Of a stretch of DNA of 64,000 bases, positions 44,201 through 60,291 are shown in pieces. A program made the translations under genes and the position numbers. Source of the stretch: Magnolia sinica. Its lineage: Eukaryota; Streptophyta; Magnoliopsida; Magnoliales; Magnoliaceae. Numbering within the stretch: the stretch's first letter is position 1; each line of letters starts with the position of its first letter. The DNA lies in contig NC_080588.1 in NCBI RefSeq assembly GCF_029962835.1, positions 19,238,001 through 19,302,000 on the forward strand, given 5' to 3'. The notes beneath the pieces were generated by a model, which saw nothing but the letters and a program-made list of their open reading frames with translations, was not told the DNA's origin and searched no databases.

Positions 44201-47200
44201 CTTAGATCAGTTAGGTCTTTGATCAACCAGCTTGTGTGGCCTTTTGGTTGCATCCCAGATTCTCCCGTTTTTTCCTCTTCTCTATTAACTTTGGATTGAC
44301 ATGTATGTAATTGCTAATGATAGTTTTTAACAAAATTACATTCACGATAGTTGAGATTGTAATCTAATCACAGATATTCTAGTTTTAGGTAATTTGTGGT
44401 GATTCCTGAGATGTTCAATTTCCATCTGTCAGATTTACATGCATATATAATGTATGTTGTTGGTTACATTGCATTCGTGATAGCTGTGATTCCTGTTAGT
44501 TCAATTAAAAACTTGAAAGCACGTAACATAAGTTACAAAAGCCATTACAAAAAGAACTAACAATCAACCAAAGAACTACTATTTCCCAAATGCTTTAACA
44601 CCAAATTTAGAAGTCCCAAGACTCTAAAACTTTTAATGGGTGAAGTTTTTATACCGGCATTCTAAACAAGAACAGTCTAATTCACCATTGACTACATGTA
44701 CAAAACACCAAAAATAATGATGGATTCTTGTGTTAACATTTTCTTTTTCTGATTTTTTCTTTTCTTGTCTTTTCTTTCTTTCTTTCTTTCTTTTTGTGGC
44801 ATTTTAAAAAAAAAAAAAAAAAAGAAGAAGAAGAAGAAGAAAGAATGGGCCATACGACCCATATTTTATCGGTTTTGGATTGGGCCAATATGCACCGGAA
44901 ACCAATATTCAGAACATTACACTGTGCTGACACATTTGTTCAGTTACATCACAACAATAGATTAGAAAATTAGTTTATGAAACCATATCTCAATAACTAA
45001 AATTATATTAACCAATAGCATACAACTTAACTAAATGACTAACAAACAGATAAAGATTTTTCTTAACAGCCGTGTTTATGCCTGTTTGACATGTGCATGA
45101 CACCAATGTATTCCCAACGAGGCACATTTTTGAAAAGTGGATTGTCCCTGCTACATAGCCTGCCTACTACCAAGTCCTAAAGTCAAGAGGCTATGGAGTC
45201 CAACAATATCCATGAGAAAGCACGATCAAAGATAGAAACCAATAACAAAAAACAAACCTCTCTTGAGTAATTCAGTTGTGGAGCTTTTGGTTTATGATTA
45301 TCTGAATAATCACGAGCATAAATTTCCTTAGACGATGTAGCCCGAGTTCCAGACTTATTAGCTGTTTTGCTTTGAGATTCATCACGAGCTCGCTTTCTAT
45401 CCTTTTCCGCAGGCCTTGCAACTGACACCTATTGGCATAGGAAACACCAACTGTTATAGTCATTATTGCAAAATAAAGATTTATTTATTTTAAAGGTAAA
45501 GATGAAAATTTAGCTAAGCTTGATAATTTTAAAGAACAAAACTCTAAAAGCAGAAATATTGGCTACTCATGGGGCTTAGAACCATGCCTGAATCTCAAAT
45601 TTTGGACCTTTTTCTGGCCCTTGGACCATTTTCCCATCCATTTCCTTGATTGCATTGTCGAGTTCCTGTGCAAAGAAACATCTATAAATCATACCAACAT
45701 AAGTATCAGAAACTTTACAAGAAAGCCATTTTCAAGGACATCATAGGGCTGGAACACAAGCTGGAGTCTGCGACGGAGGTAACATGATTAAACATTCGTG
45801 AAGCACAAGCCTGGTCCAATGCAGAACAATCTGGAAATAGAATCTAGAGAACCTGTACCTTAACTTAGGTGGAGAAACTGTTTCTTGGAATTTACCGTTC
45901 TGCGATCTAGTCCGAAAAAACTGAATTCCCAGCAAGTATTACTATGCTGAATATAAATTCCAGCAAACAGATATCCGAAATTGATGTAGAATGCAGTCTA
46001 CTGAAAATCCAATAACTACTGCTATGGGTGAATCTCTTATTGTTAAACTGAAACGAAAACTGAGATGTGATTTGAAGGAGGGTTGGGTGATGGGTATCAA
46101 TGAGTTGAAGGATAGGTAGTTTGAAGTCTCATCAAAACGATAGTCACGTAGAGTCTCGCTACACTGTCGACCCATATTCAATTCTAGTACTTCCAATTGC
46201 AGGAAATAGGGGGTATAAAAGCAAACTTGTATTAATCAAGACATATCTCTACATCCCATATGCTTTGTATATAATAGGTTAGAAGCTCAATCCATTTAAA
46301 CTTAGGGGTCATTTGGATTGGGGTAATTGAAATTCCCGGGTATTGCAAATACCCACTATGTTTGCAATTCCAAAGTGTGGGGTCCAATGTGTGGGGCATG
46401 ATGGCTATTGAAATTACTGGCAATTTAAATTCCCACTGGTCATTACAATACCCCAAAACTGCCACTTTTGATTCCCTAAGAAATGGTGGAATTTCACCCA
46501 AATGCCCACCAAAGATTTCCCAAATTGACCCCATGCAATATCTTACACCTTGTAAGGGGAATTGAATCCTCTACCACACTATGGGCCCACCACGTTTATC
46601 TGTGTGCCACCCACTCCATCCATCAGGTGCACTCTATTCTAGACCCCGATCCACAAATTAGGTGGGCAGCACCATAGGGAACAATGGTGATGGGACGCTG
46701 ACCATAGGTTCATGCGAGGGCAAACCACAGCGTGTATCTTTCATCAAACCCCTTCCGCAGTTGTCACTCACCAGGATGAAGGGGTGATACAAAAATCAGC
46801 CAATAAAAAACTCAGGTGGGCCACACCATGTGAACTTGGAGGTTTTAGGCATAGTTCTACATTGTTCCCATTGGCGTGGACTATATGTTTTTTCCATCAG
46901 GATAATCTTTTGTATTAACGGTGAATATAAGGGCTTTCACTTGACAGAGTAGATTTCACATATATATATAAAACATGGTAGGCCCCACAAGCCTTGGCTG
47001 CCATACGCATTGTGTCCAGTCCGCTTTTTGTAAAAGGGAAATACTTTGATAAATTGGCATGGTGCAATGGATGACATGCAGGCAGTTGGAAATTACTGAT
47101 ATGTTGCATAATTGGCATATGAGTAACTCAAATATGGGTATCCATTTAGATGTACCATGAACCAAAACTACTATTTAGTTATTTGTTAGATTATTGGATA

Positions 47201-50200
47201 TTTATTTATTTATTATTATTATTACTTTCTTTTTCTTTTTTTTTTATGAAGTCAGGGTGTCCCCGCCCCATTTTAAGGCGAGACTAGTCCCTGCGGATAC
47301 ATGCAATCACCGGCAAACCACATACATCAGGTAATCCCGGGGAGGGGAATCGAACTCGTATCTATGGGGAGCAAACCCACGACACTAGCCATTCGAACCA
47401 AACCCCGTGCGGGTGATTATCGGATATTTATTGAACAGTAAAAAAATGATATATCCAATGGTCTCATCTAAAAAAAGAAGTGTCCATGAATCAAAGGGTA
47501 GGATTGATCAACCAATCTGATTTCAGAATATAACTTACAGACAATGGGTTCCACAATTTAATCGGTTTAGTTTTAGTTAATATTTTGCACATCTACCATT
47601 TCTAAGTGCTTGCTTATCAAGTATCGGATGCAGCCAAATAACTCCCATTTTCTAAAGGAGGTTTGTTGGTTCCGCACCATATGTGAATTTACTATGACAC
47701 CTGTTATGGGATCGTTTAAAAAATGTGGGGCCCACTGCGATGTATGTGTGATATCCACTCCGTCCATCACTTTCGCTTGCTTTTATGTTAGGACAAAAGC
47801 TTAAATATGAGGCAAATCCAAAACTCAAGCGTGCCACACCACATTAAACAATGGGGATGGAAATCTCCACCACTAGAACCTTCCTAGGGCATACTATGAT
47901 GTTTATATGTCATCAAACTTTTTCACAAAATGACTCCTACAAAGGAAAACACAAAGGGATAGTTTGGGAGCTTGTAATTTAAGGTAAATGGAATCCAATT
48001 CATAATTACACTTGAATCAAGTGTAATTGGAATCCTCAATTGTGTTTCGTAGCCGGTAAATGAAATGCACTGGAATTCAAAATTTTTGTTTGTCAACCTA
48101 TAATTAGAATGCATTGGAATTTTGTATTATATTCACAAGAACCTGAATTTCATCAAGTAAATCGTCTTGAATACCCCAAATTAGTGTGCATGTGTTACAT
48201 TTGACATAACGATTGAAATAAGCCCACCAAAATATACAATTTGGCCAAAATTAGGAAATTTTAAGCCTCAGGTGGGCCACAAAAGTGGGTCCACTAATTT
48301 GTCATACATGGGGTCCATCCAACGCTCAGACAATCTAATTTTTTTAGTGCATTCGGCTTTTCAAATTTTAACTTGAAGATATTGTATGTATTTTATATAG
48401 TATTATCCATCATCCACCTAATTCTTTCTTCAGTGGGCCCCACTTCGATGTATGCGTTTTAATATTCCATCCCACGATGTATCTATTTTATCGACGACGA
48501 GACAGGCCTATGGTGGTTTTTATTGGGTCCAGATTGAGTGTGGGAACCATGGTCCTTAGACTCCCCACCATGATGTATGTATCCCATCCATGCCATTCAT
48601 CCATTTTGCCAACTCATTTTGGGGAATGAAACAAAATAAAAATAAAAATGAGGTAGATCAAAATCTCAAGTGGACCACACCACAGGAAACAATGGTGATT
48701 GAACGCCCACCATTAAAAGCTTCCTAAGCCCACTGTAATGTTTATTTGCCATCCAACCTTTTGATTAGGTCAATGGACTTGAATGAAGGGAAAACACAAA
48801 TACCAGTTTGATCCAAAACTTGTGGTCCCCAGTAAGTTTCTAATGGTGCGAGTTCAATCACCACTGTTTCCTATGGTGTGGTCCACCCGAGATTTGGATC
48901 TGCCTCATTTTTGGGCTCATGCCCTAAAATGAGTTGGCAAAATGCATGGACGGCTAGGCTAAATCACAAACATCATGGTGGAGATCACGGAACTTTTCCA
49001 GCACTGACGTGGGTACTGGAGGGGCATTACTAAATCTGGGTCCAAAGGGACCAAAATCGTCTCCAACACCTATTTTATGCATTATGCAATGTGTAAGCTC
49101 TGTGGGGGCCACCATTTGTATGTGCGAATCCAGCCCGTCCAAAATGTTGATGGGCCCCACCAATGAAAAAATCGGAGCATATCCCAACCATCCAAAAACA
49201 ATTTTTTTTTTTAAAAAAATGAGGTGGGGAGTCGCACAAACATAATTGTGGCCCCATAGAACTTTCCGTTGCGCTTGCAAGGGCTCCCTAGCATGTGTTG
49301 TAGAAAATTCATATCATTCCACATGAGTGTGGACTTTTACATGCACAGGCATACCCACATGCCCATATAAAACACGTTTGTTGTGGGGCCATTTTCGTCC
49401 ACTCACAGCAAGCAAAGACTATTGATACAAGGAAACCATCACGAATGGCACATGACAATAACCAAGATTGGAAATTCATGGCCATCATACAATTTAAGGG
49501 CAAGTGGATTGTAATAGTACTTGAATGGGATTTGATTCTTTGATCAAGTTCAAAATGGGGTTAGTTGTTATTCATAGTGAACCCTCCTTTGTAATGGTCT
49601 ACTATGATTGCAGATGGATTCCAACTAGGCCCCACAGATTCGTAAACACAAACAAATGGAGACCATTAGATCAACGATCTACAAATGAACAACATATACA
49701 TGGGCTATTTTAGATGCCATTAATTCATAAATGTCCATCTAGAAAAGTATTAGTTGATTCGTAACCATCCATCAAACGCGATTGAGTCATAACCTTCCAC
49801 TAGTTAATTTGTACTTAGGCACCAAATGTGTAAATTTTGCACATGTGGGCAATAACCACTCCACTCATAAGTTCCAACATGCAATTTACAATTTATAGTT
49901 AGAATCTGAGTTTGATAGGGTGACTGGTGGGGTGACACTTATTTTTTTCTCGATCTGGACACTTCTTAAAAAATAAACAAAACATCAATTCCAATTTACA
50001 TTTTATAATCCAGCCAAACATAAACATCACAATTACTGGGAATCACAATACTTACTATATGTAGTTAGCAAAGCAAAGATATCATGTGACTACCAATGTT
50101 GCAAGGCATTCTATAGCGAAAACGATGGTTGTAACAGCCACCACTGTTACCTTTACAATATGGGGTGTAACGACCATTGTGGGGGTCATAACGGACATTA

Positions 50201-53200
50201 TGGTCTCTATTTTTTTATTGAAAAAAATCCAAAAAACCTATATCGACCCTGTAATAGCTATTATGGGGCTTTTGTGGCCTTTACGAGAGACGTAATGGGT
50301 CATTGCAAGGGCTGTAATGGGCCACCATTACCTTTACGTAACGGACTTTATAGCCCTGTAATCATGGTGTGTCGTAAAGGCCTTTACATAAAGGTAATGG
50401 TGGCAGCTGTTACACAAAGGTAACGGTGGCACGTTATGGGGTCATAAAGGTCGAAACGGCCGTTATGGATAAAATGACCCGTAAAGGCCGTTATAGCCCC
50501 CGTAACGGCCCGTTCCCTCGTAAAGGCTGTAATGGACCCATAACAGCCCATTATGGGGCCGATACAGGTTTTTCGAGTTTTTTTCAATAGAGAAAAAAAG
50601 AAAAAAAGAAAAAAAAGAGACTGTAACAGCCGTTACAGAGGCCATAACGACCATTACAGCCCATATCGTAAAGGTAACAATGGTGGCCATTACAGCCACC
50701 ATTACTGTTATGGAATACCTTGCTCATAATGGCCTTTACAGCATACTATGAGCAATGGTAATACCCAAACATTACTCTACTTGGTAATTATAGTATTGAC
50801 ATCATTCAAATATTCCCAAACCAAACCCACATTGGATAGCTTGTGCACAAAGTAAGAACTAGACTAAACTAGGACTCTCACTCTTTTTTCTTTTTTCTTT
50901 TTTTTTTTTTTTTTGAAAGGCAATAAATTTATTGATAAAGAGGCAAAAGCCTAAAAAATTACAGATCATACCATTAACAAGATAAAACAGCTATCAACTG
51001 ATACATTAGAAGCTATTGCTCATTCAATTACACTTGATTTTGCCCTATTAAGCACTTTTGAGATTTGCCTGCTTATATTGCTAAAGCAGCGACTATTTCT
51101 TTCTATCCACATAAACCACAAACCAACAAACAAAGCCATTTTCCACAAATCCTTTCCGACCTCACCCACTCCACCTCCATGCCACACAACATAAATAAAT
51201 AAATAAATAAAAACCTTTAATCGAGCACAACGATACCCATGCCGCCCCAAAAAGATGCAAAAAACCACTCCAAATACCTCTCGCAAAAGGACAATGAAGA
51301 AAGAGATGATCTACCAACTCGCCACTCTGTAGACACATGACACAAACATTCAGAAGAAACATCCCTCTCTTGCACAAATTATCCACTGTAAGCAACTTTT
51401 TTTCCCACAAGCCAAGTGAACATCGCAAACATAGGAGCACCACATTGCCATACCGGAGCTATATGAGAGCATTGACTATCCTCAGAACAACCACTTAGAA
51501 TCTTATACCAAGATTTGATAGACAAAGACCTTGATTTTCCTTTAATCCATATCAACTAGTCTCTCATCACCCAAGGAGAAGCCCACATTCTCCATAAATT
51601 CACACCATAAATTCGTTATTAATTTCCATACTGGGGTGTTTCCTTTGTCCACCACCACCCTATTTGAACCCATACTTCTTTTCAATAATCTCTCTCCAAA
51701 GATTTCCTTGCTCTACCTAAAATCTCCAAATCTACTTCCCTAAAAGAGCTAAATTCATTTGCTCAAGATTCCAAAGACCCACTCTACCTTCCTTGATTGG
51801 CTTGCATACCTCTTCCCAGTTAACTAGATTGAGCTTGTGTTTTTCTTGTGATCCGTGCCATAGAATTCCTGCCTTAACTTTTCAATTTTTTCAACCTACC
51901 AACACTCATTTTGGACACCTACAAAGGGACATATAATAAACCAGAAGATTGGACTCTCAAATGGATCAAGGGACTACCAAAAGCAGAAGACCTAAAAGAC
52001 TAACAGCTGCAAAACTAGCCATTTTGTGACAAACCTAGAATTGTTTCTTGTAAACAAGTCGCTTAATTACTCAAACTAGGACACCTGCTTGTGAAACAAT
52101 TAATTAAGAGAGTAACTAGCACTCTTACTTAATCGAAGGACCTTGACTGAAACCTGACTGATAACCTAGTTGGGCCTGACAGGCCAGGGCTGAAGATCCA
52201 ACAAGCTAGCCCACCTGTTGACATCCTTAGTGATGACATTTTCCAGGTAAAGGCATCCAATCAATGCTTATTTATAGAACGGAAACAAAAACCATGCAAT
52301 CATGCACGATAGGAGTCCAGGTGGAAATGCAAACAAGAGGATTAAAGTAAAATTAAAGATGAATTATAAGGTCCTGATGCATTAGGATGTGAACATCATG
52401 ATGTGCCACTCATGATGAGTGGGACCCAATGTTTGATGATTCAGACAGTTGACCTCATGCGACCCACCATGAATTTGGAAACACCCAAAAATCTCCCAAG
52501 CTGGAGTTCCCTTTGAGCAGTGGACTAAAATAGGCATCAACATCATCATCTTTGTCTTCTTCCAGCAATTCAATGTCAGCTTTTAAACAATAGATTGGAA
52601 GAAAAAAAAAATCTGCAATTGGCTGCCCACAGGAATCAACCTTCCTCTTTTCATAGGCTCTTGTAAACTGGCCATGGCAGAGGTACACATTGGTAACACT
52701 CGCATGTCAACAAAGTCCTACAAGTCCTACCTAGTACATGTCAGCACATTAATAACCAGGGCTCGTAATACCTGTATCGTTACACATATTGCTGGCTGAG
52801 GATAAGGAAACATGTATTGATATCACCAATATCATTGCCGATACCCAGAAATACATTGCTGTTTGAGGGAAGCATTGGGGAAACATAGGGAAAATGGTGG
52901 AATTTCTCAATTAAACATCAGGAGATGCAAAAATACACATATTTGCTTAGTTAGGAATCAAATAATTGTAAAGATGCATACATAGTAAGTTTTCCTTTAA
53001 TGGGGGCCTAAAAGCATGTAACGTTGATTCTAGGAAACATTGGGGAAACAAAGGGAAAATGGTGGAATTTTTCAATGATACTTCGAGATGCTAAAATACA
53101 CATATTTGCATATTCAAGAATCAAATAATACCAAAAAAGAAGCATATTTGCATATTTAGGAATCAAATAAGAAGTTTCCCTTTAATGATGGCCTAAAAGC

Positions 53201-53898
53201 ATGTATTATTGGCTCAGGGAAACATTGCGGAAACATGGGGAAAGGGTAGACTCATCCATCTACATAAAAACACATGCATGATCCATCCATCCATCTAACC
53301 ATCCATGCATGCATACATACGACACATACATATATAAACACATGCATGATCCATCCATCCATCCATCCATCCCTATATGCATGCATCCATCCATCCATCC
53401 ATCCCTACATGCATGCACGCATACACACATTCATCCATCCAGCCAACCATCCAACCAATCCATCCATCCATCCATGCATGCATTACATACATTCACTCAT
53501 CCATGATCCATCCATCCATCCATCCATGCATGCATTACATACATTCATTCATCCATGATCCATCCATCCATGCATGCATACACATACAAACAATGCATTT
53601 CATCATGCAACCATGCACCCATAAAATATTTTGAAATGAAATTTGTTTTAATAAATATATTTTTGGAGATATCGATAAATTGGCGGTATCATTGAAATAC
53701 CATTTATACACTGGCGATACAAGCGACACCTAGAATTTATATAGTCGAAACATTTGCGAGACATTGGTGATACTTACGATATAACAGTGATAGCTGGAAT
53801 TTCAATATTATCAGTATCGCCGAGATGGTGATAACGAAAATATCACAATATCACTTATATACATAGACACGGGCCTGTGTGCGTGTGTTTTTGAAGCG

Positions 53899-53936
<38 letters not shown>

Positions 53937-55599
53937 TTGCAAATGGGCAAAAGCCAAAGAATACAATAATAAAAGTAAAAGAAAATTACAATAAAAACCC
54001 CCTTACAATTCTAACCAACAAGCAAGAAACTGATCAATAACTGCACTTTAGTTGCTTTCACCCATTCCATAACACTCAATTTCACCCTATTGAAGACTTC
54101 CGAGGAGCTGCGAGCCCTTCGATTTTTTAAACAACGGCTATTTTCTTTCCAACCAAACGCTCTATAACCCTGCTAATAAAGACAAATGCCAAATCTACTT
54201 CTCAACTTTACCCTTGCGCCCCTCCATGCCAAGCTAAGAAAAACTAATTAATGGAACTTGGAACAACCCATGCAACTCCAAACAAATTAAAGAAACTAAC
54301 CAAATCTTTACAGAAAAGGACAATGGATAAAGAGATGATCGACAGTCTCCTTCCCTTGATAGCATAATAAATGCACATTGGGAATAATCATGCCGTGCTT
54401 TTGCAAATTGTCAACCATGAGAACCTTGTTCCTACCCACTAACCATGCAAATGCCGCCACCTTTGAAGGAGCACGATAACGCCAAACATGGGTTGTGTGA
54501 CACTCTAACTGCTCAATATGCCCCCCATCGATCATCGTATAAAAAGATTTTACCAAGAACTTTCTAGAGTTTTCTTTTAACCACACCATAGCATCTTCCT
54601 CCGAGGTAAACGGAAGCTGATTGGAAAGTAATTCTAGCAATCAAAGCAAATCCTCCACCTCTTCATCATTCAGATTTCTTCTACAAGGAGGTGCCCAAAT
54701 AGTTTCCTCACCATGATTAGATAAACATCTATCTTGCATTATATTTGGCTCTAGCCTCTAGGGAAATTCTTGCTAACTGAGGAAAGCAATACTTGGCTTT
54801 TGGACCTCAACCCACAGATATTCCCAAAATCTAATCTTCTTACCATCACCTAATGAGAAACCCACCCCCTCCCAAACCTTAATTTTCAACAAAATCACTA
54901 CTTTCCATAGTGATGAAGCCCTTACAAAGAAGAAGCTTTTGTTCATCTACTCCCTTCCTCAGCCCCATACTTTCTACCCAACACTTCCCTCCACAAACTA
55001 CCTTCCTCTACCCAAACCTCCAAGCCCATTCATTCTCTCCAAACTCCTTAAACCTGCACCCCCTTGATCCATCGGTTTACACACCTCTTCCCACTTAACT
55101 AGATGAAATTTATGATTTTCTTCCGACCCCTATCATAGAAAGTCTCGCCTTATCTTTTCTACTTTGGCCACAACTGATTTTGGACATTTGAAGGTAGACA
55201 AAGTAAATCAGAAGGTTTGACACAGTCGACTTAATTAATCTAAGCGTACCTCCCAAGAAAAAATGCCTAGCCTTTAATGCAGGGGCATTTTCACACCGAG
55301 CTCGAGTGGGGTAGCCCGTGGGATGCGGGGACACACTCGGGGTGGTTGACCCATGTGATTTGGGGCCCACAGGGGAGGTCTCGTGTTCGAGACCCCTCAC
55401 CAGGGGTGATTAATGCGTGTTTCACACCGGGCTCAAGTGGGGTAGCCCGTGGGATGCAGGGACACACTCGGGGTGGGCGGCCCATGTAATTTGGGGCCCA
55501 CGAAGGGGGTTCGGCTGAGGTCCTAACGCATGCAATGTGGGGCCTGGGCTATGAGATAAAGGGATTAATTCGCCATACTCTAACAGTTTTTTTTTTTTT

Positions 55600-55633
<34 letters not shown>

Positions 55634-56822
55634 CATCAATTAACTACCATCTAGACATATGCTCCATCCATCATGTAGTCATATCAGGTAAGGGTATCAT
55701 ACACTAATTTGATCTTTACATATGAACTAAATTCCTAGTGGTAGGAGAAAAAAAACAAAACAAAACAAAAATAAGAACCATATCATGTTTAAACCTATGA
55801 TTGTAAACTATATTTGGAATCATAAAATTTCCCCATTGAAGTCAAGGTCGCACGCCATCCACATCGCTAAGCTAGCCTTGGAGTGTAGAAGTGAATTTCC
55901 CGTTCGTTAATTGGTTGTGATGGTCTTGCATTTATCTCTGCATTATCGTTAACAGCCATCCTTAGTAATTTCACTTGCTCTCTTGAAACAGTCCTCACCT
56001 TTTTAACCATTGTCCAGATTACATCTTGTTTGCAAGGAGGGGTAGTGAGAGATCCCAAGTATCTATAATATTTCTTACTTCCCATCTTTAAATGCCTTGG
56101 GTTAACCACTCCCACATCTCCCTCCATTTCATGAATGTCAGTAATAGATCTTGTATGTTCCATCAGCTCTAAGAGAAATGAGTCTGGTCATCCAATTTTG
56201 TACATGATTCCAACCATGGCTACTTGTCCGTTGGAGCTCTCATGAACCATGTGCACCTCTAGATCATAGCTCTTGCCATTTATGGTGTGCTCTGAAGGAG
56301 AGTGCCAGTGGCACTGTTGTAGTACATATTCAGTTCCATTAACATGAATTGATCCTGCCCCATTAACCCATTTCAACATTATATCATGTCCTCTATTCTT
56401 GAGTGTTGCATTGGATGGCTTGTAATGCTTTTTTAATCTCCTTAAATGGGACACTACTTGCACTCTTTCATGCAACAAATCGATTGGAGACTGCATATCT
56501 CCATTCTTACACATTGCCCATTCCTCATGTATATCTCCCCAATTTCCAGGCCCCTAATTACCACTCCCTTTCACATAATCAAATTCCCTCTCATCCTCAA
56601 CTTCTTGTGATGTTGTTGGGGCTGAATGAAAGATAAGTAGAAAAAGGAAAACACAAAATATGATGATATGTGTGCTCGGGTTTTCCATGTTTTTCTTTCA
56701 AGAATCAGTAAAAGCCCAAAATAAAAAAAGAAAGATCAAGTTGGCTTCTTCTTCTTTCCTTCTTTCTCTATTTCTATTTGTTGGCCGGAAATGTTGGAGA
56801 GCAATGATAGCTTCTTCTTTTT

Positions 56823-56856
<34 letters not shown>

Positions 56857-58939
56857 CAGAGCCTTCATTTCTTGAAAAAGGGCACTTATCTTCAGTTCGA
56901 GCTTTTAGCGCAAGTGGTTAATTGTCCTACATCAAATTGGTATCAAAGCAGGAGGTCTCGTGTTCGAGAATCCTCATTGGGGGTGATTAATGCAGGGGCA
57001 TTTTCACACAGGGCTCGAGTGGGGTACCTCGTGGGATGCGGGGACACACTCGGAGTGGGTGACCCATGTGATTTGGGGCCCACGGGGGAGGTCTCGTGTT
57101 CGATACTCCTCACCAGGAGTGATTAATAAGCATTTCACACTGGGCTCGAGTGGGGTAGCCCGTGTGATGCGGGGACACACTCAGGGTGGGCAGCCCATGT
57201 GATTTGGGGCCCACAAAGGGGGTTCGGCCGAGGTCCTAACTCATACGATGTGGGGCCTGGGTTATGAGATAAAGGGATTAATTCGCCATACTCTAACAGT
57301 TCGAGCTTTTAGAGCAAGTGGTTAATTGTCCTGCATCAGCCTTCCAAGAAGATGATTCTTTTCTTTCGAACCTTTCTATCACTTTGACCCATAAATGCTA
57401 GGCCGGTTTACCTACGCATAAGGAAAGACCTAGGTATGAAGATGGAAAGGAACCTGCCCTGCATCCAAAGCGTGCCGAAAAACCCTCAACCTCATCCTTA
57501 GAAAGACCCACCCCCAACAGTTCGCTTTTATTAATGTTGACCTTTAATCCTGAAATTGCCTCGAAATGTGTCATAATGGAATGGAGATTATCAACCTTCA
57601 ATTCATTCGTGTCGCATTAAAGTAGAGTATCATCCGCATAAAACTTGAAAAATTGAATTATCCACCCGAAAGCCTTCCACTAAACCTGCCACAACCCCTT
57701 GTTCTAAAATCCTCCCAAATGCCTCCACCACCACAAACAAATAAGGAGATAATGGATCTCCTAGCCACAACCATCTAGATGAAGAGAAGTACCCTTTCAT
57801 GCACCATTTACCAATATTTTCAATAACATTGCTGATACTTGGAACAATGGCAATAACCAGTACTAACCCCCAACGTAACAAGCATGCAAAGTAGGATCAT
57901 GGAGGAGCAACTATCCTGGTTCAGCAATATTGGTGAGCACAAGGAGCAATTGTCCTTGTCTGGCAATATCTGTGAGTGTGAATAACCATAATTGCACAAA
58001 GCCAGAAGGGAAACAGCAATAGATTCGGGTTGAAAGTGGGGAAGCAACTGTTATAAAATGTAAAAATATAATCTGTAGGAAAGCAGGAGAGGAGCAAGAG
58101 TCTGAACCACAATTCGAAGCAGGAGCAGCATCTAATTAAAGGATCTGGCAACTAAGTAACACACACATCAGGAAACTATTCATATCCCAATTTGTAAGGA
58201 GGATGAGTATGGGATTTTATCATGAAGCCCATTCTTTAGAATTAGGTATATAACAACAGATCATATTGATGACATCCATTTAACCATAAGAACAACCAGC
58301 CTTCACAATTTCATTCCACTTGGTTTCAGTAAATACAAGCACATGCTCACCATAATAATAAGAAAGATTAACAGAGACTTGGGTGCATAAATAAAGAGAA
58401 TAAAAGACAATGAAACATTTACTTCCAAGAAAATGGCATAACAAACGGAAACGGTAAAACTTACTGAGCGCTTAGCAAAGTGAATGAATCCAACTGGGAA
58501 GTGGCCCTTCCGGGATAGCGCCACTTTTTCCAACTGAAAGGGACACATATTTGCACAATAAGAACTCTTGCATTCGATTACAAATGAAGTCTGGGGATTT
58601 CTTCAGTGACCATAGCATACCTTTCCAAATGGCTCAAAAAGTTTCTTGAGATAACCCTCATCGGTATTTTTTGGAAGATTTCCAACAAATGCTACCTTAA
58701 TCTGGAAGTTAAACAAATATGAAAAGACCAGGCTGAAATAACTTAAATGCTGATAACATACAAAATATTCATACCCAAAACAATACTTTGAAGCTGAAGA
58801 AGTAACGAAAGAAGACTACCTTCGCCAGTTCTTCTGGATCAATTTCAGGTTCCTTCTCAGCCCAATCAACAATAGGATGCCATTTATCACCGAGCACAAA
58901 ATCTGGTTTTGACCCAATTCTATGCGCACGTGCTGCAGC
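28546..58939 (-). CDS. hnRNP Q/R-like RNA-binding protein, 3' ten exons (5' part outside or unseen)
   Basis: Exons in transcript order: 58939-58820, 58701-58621, 58533-58465, 45665-45588, 45428-45258, 35395-35288, 35073-35005, 34894-34832, 34739-34576, 28858-28546. All joins keep one frame (nine exons phase 0; the last splice splits an AGG codon) and total 1236 nt, 411 aa plus stop. The product begins in a linker ([20 protein letters not shown]), then an RRM with RNP2 VAFVGNL and RNP1 [10 protein letters not shown] (residues about 42-118). A basic stretch follows ([14 protein letters not shown]), then a helical region, [40 protein letters not shown] and [20 protein letters not shown]. This resembles the acidic/NURR-like module of hnRNP R/Q. 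The C-terminus has a repeated KFDPFTGEP and ends SRSHF. Plant relatives include the LIF2-like group; that assignment is from memory. Expected upstream RRMs were not found before 64000. A role in nuclear RNA binding is inferred. Confidence 0.85.
29924..30895. mobile_element. hAT-like foldback element A (TATCG-rich) within the RTE LINE
   Basis: Ends CAGTGTTTGAAATATCG and, inverted, CAATGTTTTAAATATCG. It is flanked by a perfect 8-bp duplication CTTGGGAG (29916-29923 and 30896-30903). The LINE frame resumes exactly at the duplication. The ends are dominated by GTATCG/CGATAC words, and the middle contains GGGAAACATTAGGAAAATGG and AAATTTCCCTAATTTTCCCC. Non-coding. Confidence 0.85.
30990..31462. mobile_element. 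hAT-like foldback element B (GTAGC-rich) within the RTE LINE
   Basis: The left end is CAGTGTTTTAAATA. The right end, TTAAAACACTA, is its inverse apart from the last base. The 8-bp duplication GTTAAGAG / GTTAGGAG lies at 30982-30989 and 31463-31470. The interior is full of GTAGCTTACACTACATAGC-type words, largely self-complementary. Non-coding. Confidence 0.8.
32046..32307 (+). repeat. (GT)n(GA)n microsatellite followed by a duplicated 105-bp unit
   Basis: A GT run (32046-32092) leads into a GA run (32093-32131). A unit starting AGCCTGGCCCTCGGGCC and ending CTAAGGACATGCAT then occurs twice (32132-32200 and 32237-32307), each preceded by GA repeats. The unit with its GA tract was evidently duplicated in tandem. 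Confidence 0.85.
32350..32483 (+). repeat. Tandem repeat of about 73 bp upstream of an L1, third copy downstream
   Basis: TTGTAGATGCAACGACATGT... to TTCACCATGTCTAACAG plus TGGCTATATAATTCC, then the same again. A diverged copy (TGGCTATATAATGATG through AAGGTCACCATGTCT) starts right after the L1 poly(A) tail at about 34271. It may be a pre-existing tandem repeat split by the L1, or an unusually long target duplication. Confidence 0.7.
32484..34270 (+). mobile_element. 5'-truncated L1-type LINE, 3' end with poly(A)
   Basis: Plus-strand ORF2 C-terminal remnant. With frame changes it reads [20 protein letters not shown], then [20 protein letters not shown] and [17 protein letters not shown] (a zf-RVT-like region, about 33770-33900). 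[20 protein letters not shown] follows, then a 3'UTR and (AAT)n/poly(A) to 34270. These phrases match the C-terminal zinc-ribbon region of plant L1 ORF2. It is interrupted by a foldback element at 32550-33127. The 5' limit is approximate. Confidence 0.8.
32550..33127. mobile_element. hAT-like foldback element C (GTAGCGTACGCTAC-rich) within the L1
   Basis: The left end CAATGTTTTAAAAAGTGG pairs with an inverted GTGTTTCAAATAGCGC at the right. A perfect duplication GGCGGGAC (9 bp counting a preceding A) lies at 32542-32549 and 33128-33135. The interior repeats the words of element B (TAGCGTACGCTACA, GCATACACTAC), so B and C belong to one family. Confidence 0.82.
34576..35395 (-). CDS. hnRNP-like gene, exon cluster C (helical NURR-like module)
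   Basis: Four exons: 35395-35288 ([20 protein letters not shown] to TRYD), 35073-35005 ([20 protein letters not shown], then LDQ), 34894-34832 ([20 protein letters not shown], then R), and 34739-34576 ([20 protein letters not shown] to ALA plus a split codon). Introns are 214, 110 and 92 bp with GT-AG ends. The last exon's start could instead be 6 nt further in (CACCAG|ATT); the choice adds or removes HQ without changing frame. Confidence 0.88.
35595..37143 (+). mobile_element. L1-type LINE ORF2 amino-terminal fragment (endonuclease)
   Basis: The plus strand reads [20 protein letters not shown], then [16 protein letters not shown] (metal-binding glutamate of the AP-endonuclease-like fold), [20 protein letters not shown] and [20 protein letters not shown]. 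The conserved DHRPI end is altered to [13 protein letters not shown] linker to about 36960 and a partial RT lead follow. Several frameshifts. It ends where the Tat LTR begins (about 37144), so the LTR element probably truncated or entered it. Confidence 0.82.
37144..38060 (+). mobile_element. 5' LTR of the second Tat-type element
   Basis: It shares ordered blocks with the LTR at 15459-16386, including TATAAATA (37474-37481), GGTCTCATACCAACC, TTCCTAGTGTAATCCG and GCTCGGGGTCATTGTTG. It runs to a GGCACGCCCTGTGG sequence at about 38068 that resembles the start of the untranslated leader in Tat elements. Gag begins soon after, so this is the 5' LTR. The left edge, TG at 37148, is tentative. A small TTTACATTTCC/TTTACGTTCC duplication lies near 37570-37670. 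Confidence 0.6.
38085..40567 (+). pseudogene. Tat-type gag and adjacent polyprotein remnant
   Basis: The gag is readable in pieces. A leader has [20 protein letters not shown] (38190-38470) and a proline-rich part follows at 38490-38747. The capsid-like core reads [56 protein letters not shown] and [13 protein letters not shown] (about 38990-39250). A zinc-knuckle-like box, [20 protein letters not shown], is near 39610-39665. Further on, [16 protein letters not shown] and [20 protein letters not shown] (40250-40480) resemble the segment at the window start, which lies just before the protease. The copy stops at about 40567, before any protease or RT, where an antisense L1 begins. Numerous stops and frameshifts. 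Confidence 0.78.
40568..41945 (-). mobile_element. L1-type LINE ORF2 fragment (endonuclease to start of RT), antisense
   Basis: The minus strand reads [31 protein letters not shown], then [49 protein letters not shown] and DHRPISLE (the catalytic DHRPI histidine/aspartate end is intact). The linker continues [35 protein letters not shown], and an RT lead ([10 protein letters not shown]). The order is that of plant L1 ORF2. It ends at the border of the Tat fragment. Decayed. Confidence 0.85.
41946..43216. other. Intron sequence without recognised genes
   Basis: The stretch 41960-42060 repeats GGATGGCATGAGTGCGAGATCTCC and GGATGGCACGAGTGCAAGGTCTCC-like text. At 42884-42960 a unit of about 36 bp (GAGTGAGAGTCAAAAGAAG, then AATTCGAAGCAG) occurs twice. 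A related phrase (CACAATTCGAAGCAGGAGCA) reappears at 58108, just outside the antisense L1. No coding signal otherwise. Confidence 0.5.
42884..42960 (+). repeat. Two tandem copies of a 36-bp unit
   Basis: GAGTGAGAGTCAAAAGAAGA and GAGTGAGAGTCGGAAGAAGA each continue with ATTCGAAGCAG. The copies are directly adjacent and differ at only a few positions. Confidence 0.75.
43217..44030. mobile_element. hAT-like foldback element D (ATCGTACGATT-rich)
   Basis: The left end TAGTGTAATTAGAATCGTA pairs with an inverted CAATGTTGTCAAAATCG at the right. The 8-bp duplication GCCATAAC / GCCATAAT is at 43209-43216 and 44031-44038. The left arm is packed with GAATCGTACGATTC words, and the right arm has TACGATTTGCGATTCGATAC. 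A (GA)n(G)n tract (43532-43570) and an AT-rich centre fill the middle. Non-coding; the open frames inside are low-complexity. Confidence 0.75.
44031..45257. other. Intron sequence without recognised genes
   Basis: AT-rich, with a (TTTC)n tract at 44759-44792 and an A-run plus (GAA)n at about 44806-44842. Nothing coding is recognised up to the exon at 45258. Confidence 0.5.
45258..45665 (-). CDS. hnRNP-like gene, exon cluster B (RRM end and basic linker)
   Basis: Exon 45665-45588 (78 nt) encodes [20 protein letters not shown], then PKFEIQ, the last helix and strand of the RRM. Its donor reads CAG|GCATGG, so the 159-bp intron is of GC-AG type. Exon 45428-45258 (171 nt) encodes [20 protein letters not shown] and a lysine/serine-rich linker ending NYSRE. 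VSVARP directly after the RRM is the usual phrase in hnRNP Q-like proteins, which confirms the join. Confidence 0.9.
46300..47188. repeat. Cluster of dispersed non-coding repeat arms
   Basis: It starts with AGGGGTCATTTGGATTGGGG, a wording usual for short plant DNA elements. Arms of the CTATGGGCCCACCACG, AGGTGGGCAGCACCATAGGG and GGTGGGCCACACCATGTG type follow. I could not pair the ends, so element limits are not given. A similar TTTGG...GGAAT wording, inverted, appears near 50790-50835. Confidence 0.45.
47207..47414 (-). mobile_element. tRNA-derived SINE with 18-bp target duplication
   Basis: On the minus strand the head reads CACCCGCACGGGGTTTGG. An A-box-like TGGCTAGTGTCGTGG and a B-box GAGTTCGATTCCC follow, spaced as in tRNA promoters. 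A tail ends in oligo(A) (poly-T on plus, about 47220-47246). The flanks GATTATTGGATATTTATT (47189-47206) and GATTATCGGATATTTATT (47415-47432) form a target duplication with one mismatch. The Pol III boxes, oligo(A) and long TSD together identify a SINE. Confidence 0.88.
48541..49000. mobile_element. Foldback MITE of the CCACCATGATGTATG family, complete
   Basis: The left arm (CCCCACCATGATGTATGT, CCATTTTGCCAACTCATTTT, GAGGTAGATCAAAATCTC, GTGGACCACACCACAGGAAA, CAATGGTGATTGAAC) is matched in inverse by the right arm (GTTCAATCACCACTG, CCTATGGTGTGGTCCACC, GATTTGGATCTGCCTC, CTAAAATGAGTTGGC, CATCATGGTGG). Arms of about 150 bp surround a 130-bp centre. Single arms of the same family are scattered through the window. 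Confidence 0.85.
49001..50092. other. Intron sequence with single repeat arms only
   Basis: A GGGCCCCACC-type arm lies at 49095-49260 with a poly(T)/poly(A) junction at about 49201-49220. The rest to 50092 is AT-rich, with no supported gene. Confidence 0.45.
50093..50735. mobile_element. Foldback element E (GTAACGGCCGTTAC-rich)
   Basis: The left arm CAATGTTGCAAGGCATTC, then AACGATGGTTGTAACAGCCACC, is matched in inverse at the right (GGTGGCCATTACAGCCACC, GGAATACCTTGC). The interior is almost wholly words such as GTAACGGCC, CCGTTATGG, AAAGGCCGTTA and CATTACAGCC. The short reading frames here are translations of these words. No target duplication was found, and the right edge is approximate. 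Confidence 0.7.
50881..51950 (-). mobile_element. 5'-truncated L1-type LINE, antisense
   Basis: The minus strand reads [40 protein letters not shown] and [20 protein letters not shown], then a 3'UTR and a poly(A) tail (poly-T on plus, 50882-50916). Upstream (51450-51950) are the preceding ORF2 phrases, with stops. GGACTCTCA is found at both borders (50872-50880 and 51951-51959), a probable 9-bp target duplication. This is the same L1 region as at 33770-34000. Confidence 0.83.
51951..52750. other. Intron sequence without recognised genes
   Basis: Nothing coding or repetitive is recognised between the L1 border and the TATCG-rich repeat that follows. Confidence 0.45.
52760..53880. repeat. TATCG-rich repeat related to element A, with internal CATC/CATG satellite
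   Basis: The left part has GTATCGTTACAC, GATATCACCAATATC and three copies of GGAAACATTGGGGAAACA-type text (about 52865, 53035, 53215). One, GGAAAATGGTGGAATTTTTC, matches the middle of element A (30030). The right part has GATATCGATAAATTGGCG, GGCGATACAAGCG and CAGTATCGCCGAG. Between them (53278-53590) is a (CATC)n/(CATG)n tract in four higher-order units. Ends and TSD were not resolved. Confidence 0.6.
55601..55632. repeat. (AT)n microsatellite in the 3'UTR of the retrocopy
   Basis: A run of TATATATA follows the poly-T and belongs to the transcribed 3' end on the minus strand. Confidence 0.8.
55867..56688 (-). pseudogene. Alpha-carbonic anhydrase, intronless retrocopy with two stop codons
   Basis: One frame runs 274 codons from ATG 56688 to TAG 55867-55869. 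Alpha-carbonic anhydrases hydrate CO2 with a three-histidine zinc site, usually in plant secretory or plastid compartments. Visible here are a signal-peptide-like start ([18 protein letters not shown]), [40 protein letters not shown] (zinc ligands in HWH), LEVHMVHES (third ligand) and [19 protein letters not shown], ending with the QPINERE region. Length and motif order are normal for plant alpha-CA. Two in-frame stops break it: TAG at 56554-56556 and TGA at 56188-56190 (in KIG*PDS, an expected CGA arginine, so a CpG transition). No other frameshift is seen. It lies antisense to nothing but intron, inside a TRIM LTR. Plant alpha-CA genes normally have several introns, so this is a processed copy, probably young. 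Confidence 0.92.
57881..58464. other. Intron sequence between the antisense L1 and exon cluster A
   Basis: It contains CACAATTCGAAGCAGGAGCA (58108), shared with 42890-42960. No coding region is recognised. Confidence 0.45.
58465..58939 (-). CDS. hnRNP-like gene, exon cluster A (linker and RRM)
   Basis: Three exons of 120, 81 and 69 nt are separated by introns of 118 and 87 bp with GT-AG ends. Exon 58939-58820 encodes [20 protein letters not shown] onward to EELAK. Exon 58701-58621 encodes [20 protein letters not shown] and LFEPFGK (RNP2). Exon 58533-58465 encodes [20 protein letters not shown], then KRS (RNP1). All are phase 0. The RRM is completed only by the exon at 45588, 12.8 kb away. 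Confidence 0.9.
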
Positions 58940-59710: not shown

Positions 59711-60291
59711 TAATGCAGGGGCTTTTTCACACTGGGCTCGAGTGAGGTGGCCCAGGGGCACACTCAAGGTGGGCGGTCCGCGGAACCCATGTGATTTGGA
59801 GCCCGTGTGAGGCGGGTGGCTTGTGTAAGGCAGAACCCATGGATTTGGGGCCCACAAGGAGGGTTCGACTGAGGATCTAACCCATGGATTTGGGGCCTGG
59901 GCTATGAGATAAAGGGATTAATTCGTCAAGCTCTATCAATTCGAGCTTTTAGAGCAAGTTATTAATTGTCCTGTGTCAAATTGGTATCAGAGTGGGAGGT
60001 CTCGTGTTTGAGACTCCTCACTAGGAGTGATTAATGAAGGGGCATTTCTACATTGGGCTCGAGTGGGGTGGCCTGTGGGATGCGGGAGCACACTCGGGGT
60101 GGGCAGCCCGGGGAACCCATGTGATTTGGGGCTTGTGTGAGGCGGAACCCATGGATTTGGGGCCCACGAGGAGGGTTCGGCCGAGGACCTAACCCATAGA
60201 TTTGGGGCCCGGGGCTATGAGATAAAGGGATTAATTCACCATGCTCTATTAGTTCGAGCTTTTAGAGCAAGTGGTTAATTGTCCTGCATCA
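59711..60291. mobile_element. TRIM-like element, second copy, empty
   Basis: The 5-bp duplication CAATG flanks it (59706-59710 and 60292-60296). LTR1 is 59711-59978 (TAATGCAGGGGCTTTTTCAC to GTCCTGTGTCA). The internal part of 53 bp (59979-60031) holds the primer-binding site TTGGTATCAGAG and TGTTTGAGACTCCTC. LTR2 is 60032-60291. Same family as the element at 55275-57339, but each LTR is about 90 bp shorter because the internal half-repeat is missing. Confidence 0.82.

Follow-up and report, generated by a model that had tools for sequence, protein, structure and literature searches.

Miniature LTR retrotransposons (TRIMs) and their tandem arrays are on record in plants (Gao et al., 2016, PMC4717578; PMC7215508). 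As characterized in the part of the literature provided by Gao et al. (PMC4717578), TRIMs have two short LTRs, a tiny interior and a 5-bp target-site duplication (TSD), and can form arrays in which three LTRs alternate with two interiors. The gene pieces that they captured are described there as lying in the interior, mostly in at least two copies. The account of Cassandra TRIMs in PMC7215508 likewise reports short LTRs, the word TGGTATCAGAGC beside the LTR and tandem arrays. Retrocopies of the L1-like type are outlined for dicots (PMC4838847) as intronless copies of an mRNA that end in an A-tail. Finally, plant retrotransposons can be layered, younger elements lying in older ones (sketched in PMC4717578).

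The stretch of DNA analysed here, called the window, comprises 64,000 nucleotides of Magnolia sinica contig NC_080588.1 and contains such a layered structure. A retrocopy of an alpha carbonic anhydrase mRNA lies in a TRIM, the TRIM in an L1 copy, and the L1 copy in an intron of a host gene (Table 1). This four-level nest had been proposed in the initial annotation; every layer was confirmed and the direction of nesting is upheld. Each layer is of a well-known kind, so that the nest neatly illustrates processes already known and differs from the layered elements outlined in PMC4717578 in its particular members only. The TRIM has the short LTRs, tiny interior and 5-bp TSD of the elements of Gao et al.; in contrast to the captures described there, the gene sequence came by later insertion and is found in one LTR of one element. 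A limited literature search found no published description of this particular nest. We propose, with a probability of roughly 0.88, that three successive and separate retrotransposition events in one intron made it.

Table 1. Layers of the nest and their borders, in window positions.
Feature	Positions	Strand	Basis
Intron of the host gene (RRM type), 12,799 bp, with an exon on either side	45666-58464	-	GT donor, AG acceptor, flanking exon peptides
L1 (LINE) copy, 5'-truncated, split by the TRIM, host-gene orientation; limits approximate	53922-57814	-	19 paralogous loci, zf-RVT
TSD GCCTT, left copy	55270-55274		sequence read
TRIM 5' LTR, first 312 of 351 bp	55275-55586	+	alignment with LTR2
Retrocopy 3' tail: A14 in sense and most of the TA tract (tract 55604-55631)	55587-55626	-	border reading
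Processed alpha carbonic anhydrase pseudogene (predicted); start codon 56688, in-frame stops 56554-56556 and 56188-56190	55627-56813	-	intronless exon match, PF00194
Border sequence with A26 and 39-nt end	56814-56895		no parent homology
TRIM 5' LTR, last 39 of 351 bp	56896-56934	+	alignment with LTR2
TRIM interior, 53 bp, PBS-like word inside	56935-56987	+	length equal in 35 of 35 family arrays
TRIM 3' LTR, 351 bp	56988-57338	+	alignment with LTR1 pieces
TSD GCCTT, right copy	57339-57343		sequence read

The outermost layer, annotated as a 12.8-kb host intron, has its donor at 58465/58464 and its acceptor at 45666/45665. The exon next to it matches RRM_1 (Pfam, 6.8e-06), and its closest match among solved structures is the RRM of CELF2 (29 residues, 5.5e-06). 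Within this intron, the L1 copy carries a zf-RVT domain at 54308-54640 (Pfam, 5.7e-18). The two pieces on the reverse-transcriptase side gave no relevant Pfam match, although they align in order with genomic paralogs. Plant L1 elements are recognized by an ORF2 with reverse transcriptase and zf-RVT, and it is the zf-RVT match together with the paralog alignment that identifies the present copy. The initial annotation stated that L1 order resumes on both sides of the TRIM. This is borne out by 16 of 19 paralogous loci found via the right-hand L1 part, which are collinear across the site: their alignments end at 57340-57388 and restart within 0-44 bases at window positions 55221-55275. As for the other three, L066 and L068 restart further on and L074 never restarts. 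The alignment start, at 57811-57818 in 16 of the 19, marks the 5' end of the window copy. With L061, the paralog that scored best, identity is 79-82% by piece; one piece is inverted in that locus. No duplication was found flanking the L1 at its alignment limits; the best candidate word (15 nt, one mismatch, at 57826 and 53761) lies off these limits. A second L1 remnant is present in the same intron at 51162-51458 (zf-RVT, 3.9e-11).

The TRIM extends from 55275 to 57338. Its first LTR is interrupted at 55586/56896, and the two pieces (312 and 39 nt) add up to the 351 bp of the second. When each piece is aligned to LTR2 and the results are summed, 322 of 351 positions are identical, with 27 differences in the left piece, 2 in the right and no internal gaps, so that LTR1 freed of its insert does align across the break. 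The 29 differences are 21 transitions and 8 transversions. Both copies of the GCCTT duplication announced in the initial annotation are in place. The start of the element and the LTR length of 351 bp also stand; the second length, 352 bp, includes the initial G of the TSD, so that the element truly ends at 57338 rather than 57339. Once the insert is left out, the element measures 351, 53 and 351 bp, within the definition of a TRIM (short LTRs and a short interior, less than about 1 kb in total). Beside the 5' LTR stands a word resembling a tRNA primer binding site, one change away from TGGTATCAGAGC, which we take to be the word pairing with initiator tRNA-Met.

The assembly covered by the genome searches has 1,838,573,281 bases in 127 contigs. 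With 55275-57339 as the query, 5539 first-look candidates were obtained, of which 40 were scored, giving 98 matches; 36 loci other than the window (L023-L058) were fetched as a sample of the family. Thirty-three of them contain LTR-interior-LTR arrays, 35 in all, and three are single full LTRs. The interior is 53 bp long in all 35 arrays. The 5-bp duplication is exact in 23 of the 35, has one mismatch in five and more mismatches in seven. Three arrays (L026, L032 and L052) have three LTRs and two interiors, each with an exact 5-bp duplication. The word TGGTATCAGAGC is exact in 16 of 33 first interiors and carries one or two changes in the rest. The family is thus a true TRIM. Its LTRs begin with TAATGC or a near variant, not with TG (for instance L024, 567-1322). 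In the window element, the left LTR piece alone gives a K2P distance of 0.093, slightly more than in any of the 35 arrays sampled (0.0145-0.0895, with a median of 0.0507). Cassandra LTRs, as described in PMC7215508, contain 5S rRNA sequence, whereas the Rfam search of one member of the present family (L024) returned no 5S and nothing else relevant up to an E value of 10; a 5S origin was accordingly rejected. A tRNA origin was also rejected, with no ARAGORN match in any of eight loci. Compared by eye with the Pol III box A and B consensus, the LTR end and interior carry words resembling both boxes (example L024), which had prompted the tRNA and 5S tests. A second, shorter TRIM-type element (581 bp), diverged and flanked by the target duplication CAATG, is located at 59711-60291.

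The insert in LTR1 is antisense to the TRIM. Read on the + strand towards lower positions, homology to the parents runs from 56813 down to 55627, followed by (TA)14 and then by T14. The genes that the insert matches, one exon after another, encode alpha carbonic anhydrases and for the most part belong to a cluster on chromosome 14 (75.2-75.7 Mb). For three of these genes (L019, L020 and L021), the seven exons match the retrocopy end to end and all six introns, 91 to 887 bp in size, are missing from it. Together with the 3' poly(A), seen as A14 after the TA tract, this loss of introns is what distinguishes a processed copy, and the annotated break of LTR1 by a polyadenylated carbonic anhydrase copy is confirmed. 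Among the three parents compared, L019 is the closest, with 28 differences over 1191 sites and a K2P distance of 0.024, ahead of L021 (0.031) and L020 (0.032). Changes private to the retrocopy occupy 17 of 1164 gap-free columns, namely 16 transitions and 1 transversion; the parents differ among themselves in 36 other columns. When their exons are joined, L019 and L020 give an open frame and L021 does not; the last gene may be broken itself or wrongly joined. The joined L019 protein matches PF00194 at 7.1e-44 (Pfam).

The borders of the insert bear on how it arrived. The best exact word common to both is 5 nt long (AACAG), a length reached in 363 of 500 shuffles, so that no target duplication can be assigned to the retrocopy; it was for this reason classed as L1-like in its mode of working and not as shown to be L1-made. 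At its 5' side, 82 bp separate the end of parent homology from the LTR. This segment consists of a CT-rich stretch, A26 (56831-56856) and 39 nt (56857-56895), and has no match to the carbonic anhydrase parents outside low-complexity runs. The 39-nt part was found nowhere else in the assembly at the mismatch levels applied: with 3 mismatches allowed for a 32-mer and 2 for a 22-mer, the searches recovered the window only. Filler, a piece of another RNA and a lost 5' exon are all candidates for it. The copy thus resembles the dicot L1-like retrocopies of PMC4838847, as far as they are outlined there, in being intronless and A-tailed; unlike them, it is without a convincing target duplication and has 82 bp of foreign sequence at its 5' border. 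The most likely route would be an L1-like, target-primed one that left an A-tail, no clear target duplication and extra sequence at the 5' junction; the missing L1-type duplication counts against it, and on balance we infer that L1-like machinery probably inserted the retrocopy. A rather unlikely variant is a chimeric retrocopy, in which the carbonic anhydrase cDNA would have been linked to another RNA, or to filler made without a template, in the course of a target-primed insertion that produced no target duplication. If so, the 82-bp border would record an unusual route of plant retroposition.

Because of the nesting itself, the order of events is L1, then TRIM, then retrocopy. The divergences agree with this order: L1 copies differ by about 20% and the two LTRs by 8.3%, and 1.5% is private to the retrocopy. 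When equal rates per lineage are assumed, P is 0.0004 for the share that the retrocopy has in all changes (17 of 46) and 0.0024 for its share in the transversions (1 of 9), but the GC-rich LTRs may mutate faster than the retrocopy and so inflate the contrast in age, which the transversion test eases in part only. The history is thus datable from layer to layer, as had been anticipated. It can be proposed that the first event was the insertion of a 5'-truncated L1 copy, oriented like the host gene. A TRIM, moved by proteins of some autonomous LTR element, would then have integrated into the L1 and created the 5-bp duplication. Last, an alpha carbonic anhydrase mRNA from the chromosome-14 cluster would have been copied by reverse transcription and placed close to the end of the TRIM 5' LTR. 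The nest can serve as a clean, self-ordering worked case of retrotransposons stacked within a long plant intron, and its presence or absence can be used as a marker when related species are compared; it leaves knowledge of the individual layers unchanged.

Once reverse transcribed, a TRIM RNA bearing the insert is expected to place it in both daughter LTRs. Here, the insert is found in LTR1 and is absent from LTR2. This argues against a scenario where the TRIM itself captured the carbonic anhydrase mRNA by template switching during its own reverse transcription and integrated with it, since replication duplicates LTR sequence. Such a capture would account for a retrocopy devoid of a target duplication of its own, and gene capture in TRIM interiors is already in print (part of PMC4717578). 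However, the insert has retained an A-tract and shows less divergence than exists between the two LTRs. Moreover, a search of the genome, in which 40 of 84 candidates were scored (91 matches), yielded no second high-identity intronless copy besides the window locus and no daughter locus with the insert in both TRIM LTRs. Capture by the TRIM is therefore very improbable, and the preferred reading remains a separate insertion of the retrocopy into a TRIM already in place.

It is just as improbable that the retrocopy still works as a retrogene or serves as a regulatory intronic transcript. Most of its coding part otherwise keeps the frame, and PF00194 is matched by both frame pieces (1.5e-19 and 4.5e-18, Pfam), but in-frame stops interrupt it at codons 45 and 167 and the promoter of the parent was not brought along. 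In addition, the private changes are transitions in all cases but one, the pattern of decaying methylated DNA. Because of the two early stops, the insert is, judging from its sequence, a processed pseudogene and a dead copy. To speak of a host gene between the ends of an LTR, as the initial annotation did, is thus too strong. The further idea that the TRIM could carry this gene is not upheld either, the gene being dead, confined to LTR1 and lacking a second high-identity intronless copy among the 40 of 84 candidates scored. The three insertions would have left an inert pseudogene behind, in an intron that is itself passive. That the nest is an assembly chimera is hardly credible, since the LTR pieces are exactly complementary, the GCCTT copies match, L1 order is preserved across the element and the Magnolia sinica assembly was built from ONT reads, according to the part of PMC10999834 that deals with it.

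Parts of alpha carbonic anhydrase genes occur at other loci, for which 10 regions were fetched. Intronless stretches crossing exon junctions are present at L081 (1408-2047, on C10; 69% identity) and L082 (1516-1970, on C6; 68%). They are probably older retrocopies, as their structure suggests, and blastn found no match in them to the window LTR, the border sequence or the window L1. At five loci (L083, L084, L085, L086 and L087), exon 3 is the only exon matched in the 3 kb fetched, over 72-108 bp with 87-93% identity; two of these pieces begin exactly at the exon junction, and L087 has an extra 40-bp piece. Pieces of the last exon stand alone at L088 (1407-1558) and L089 (1272-1423), with 78-79% identity, both beginning exactly at the exon junction.
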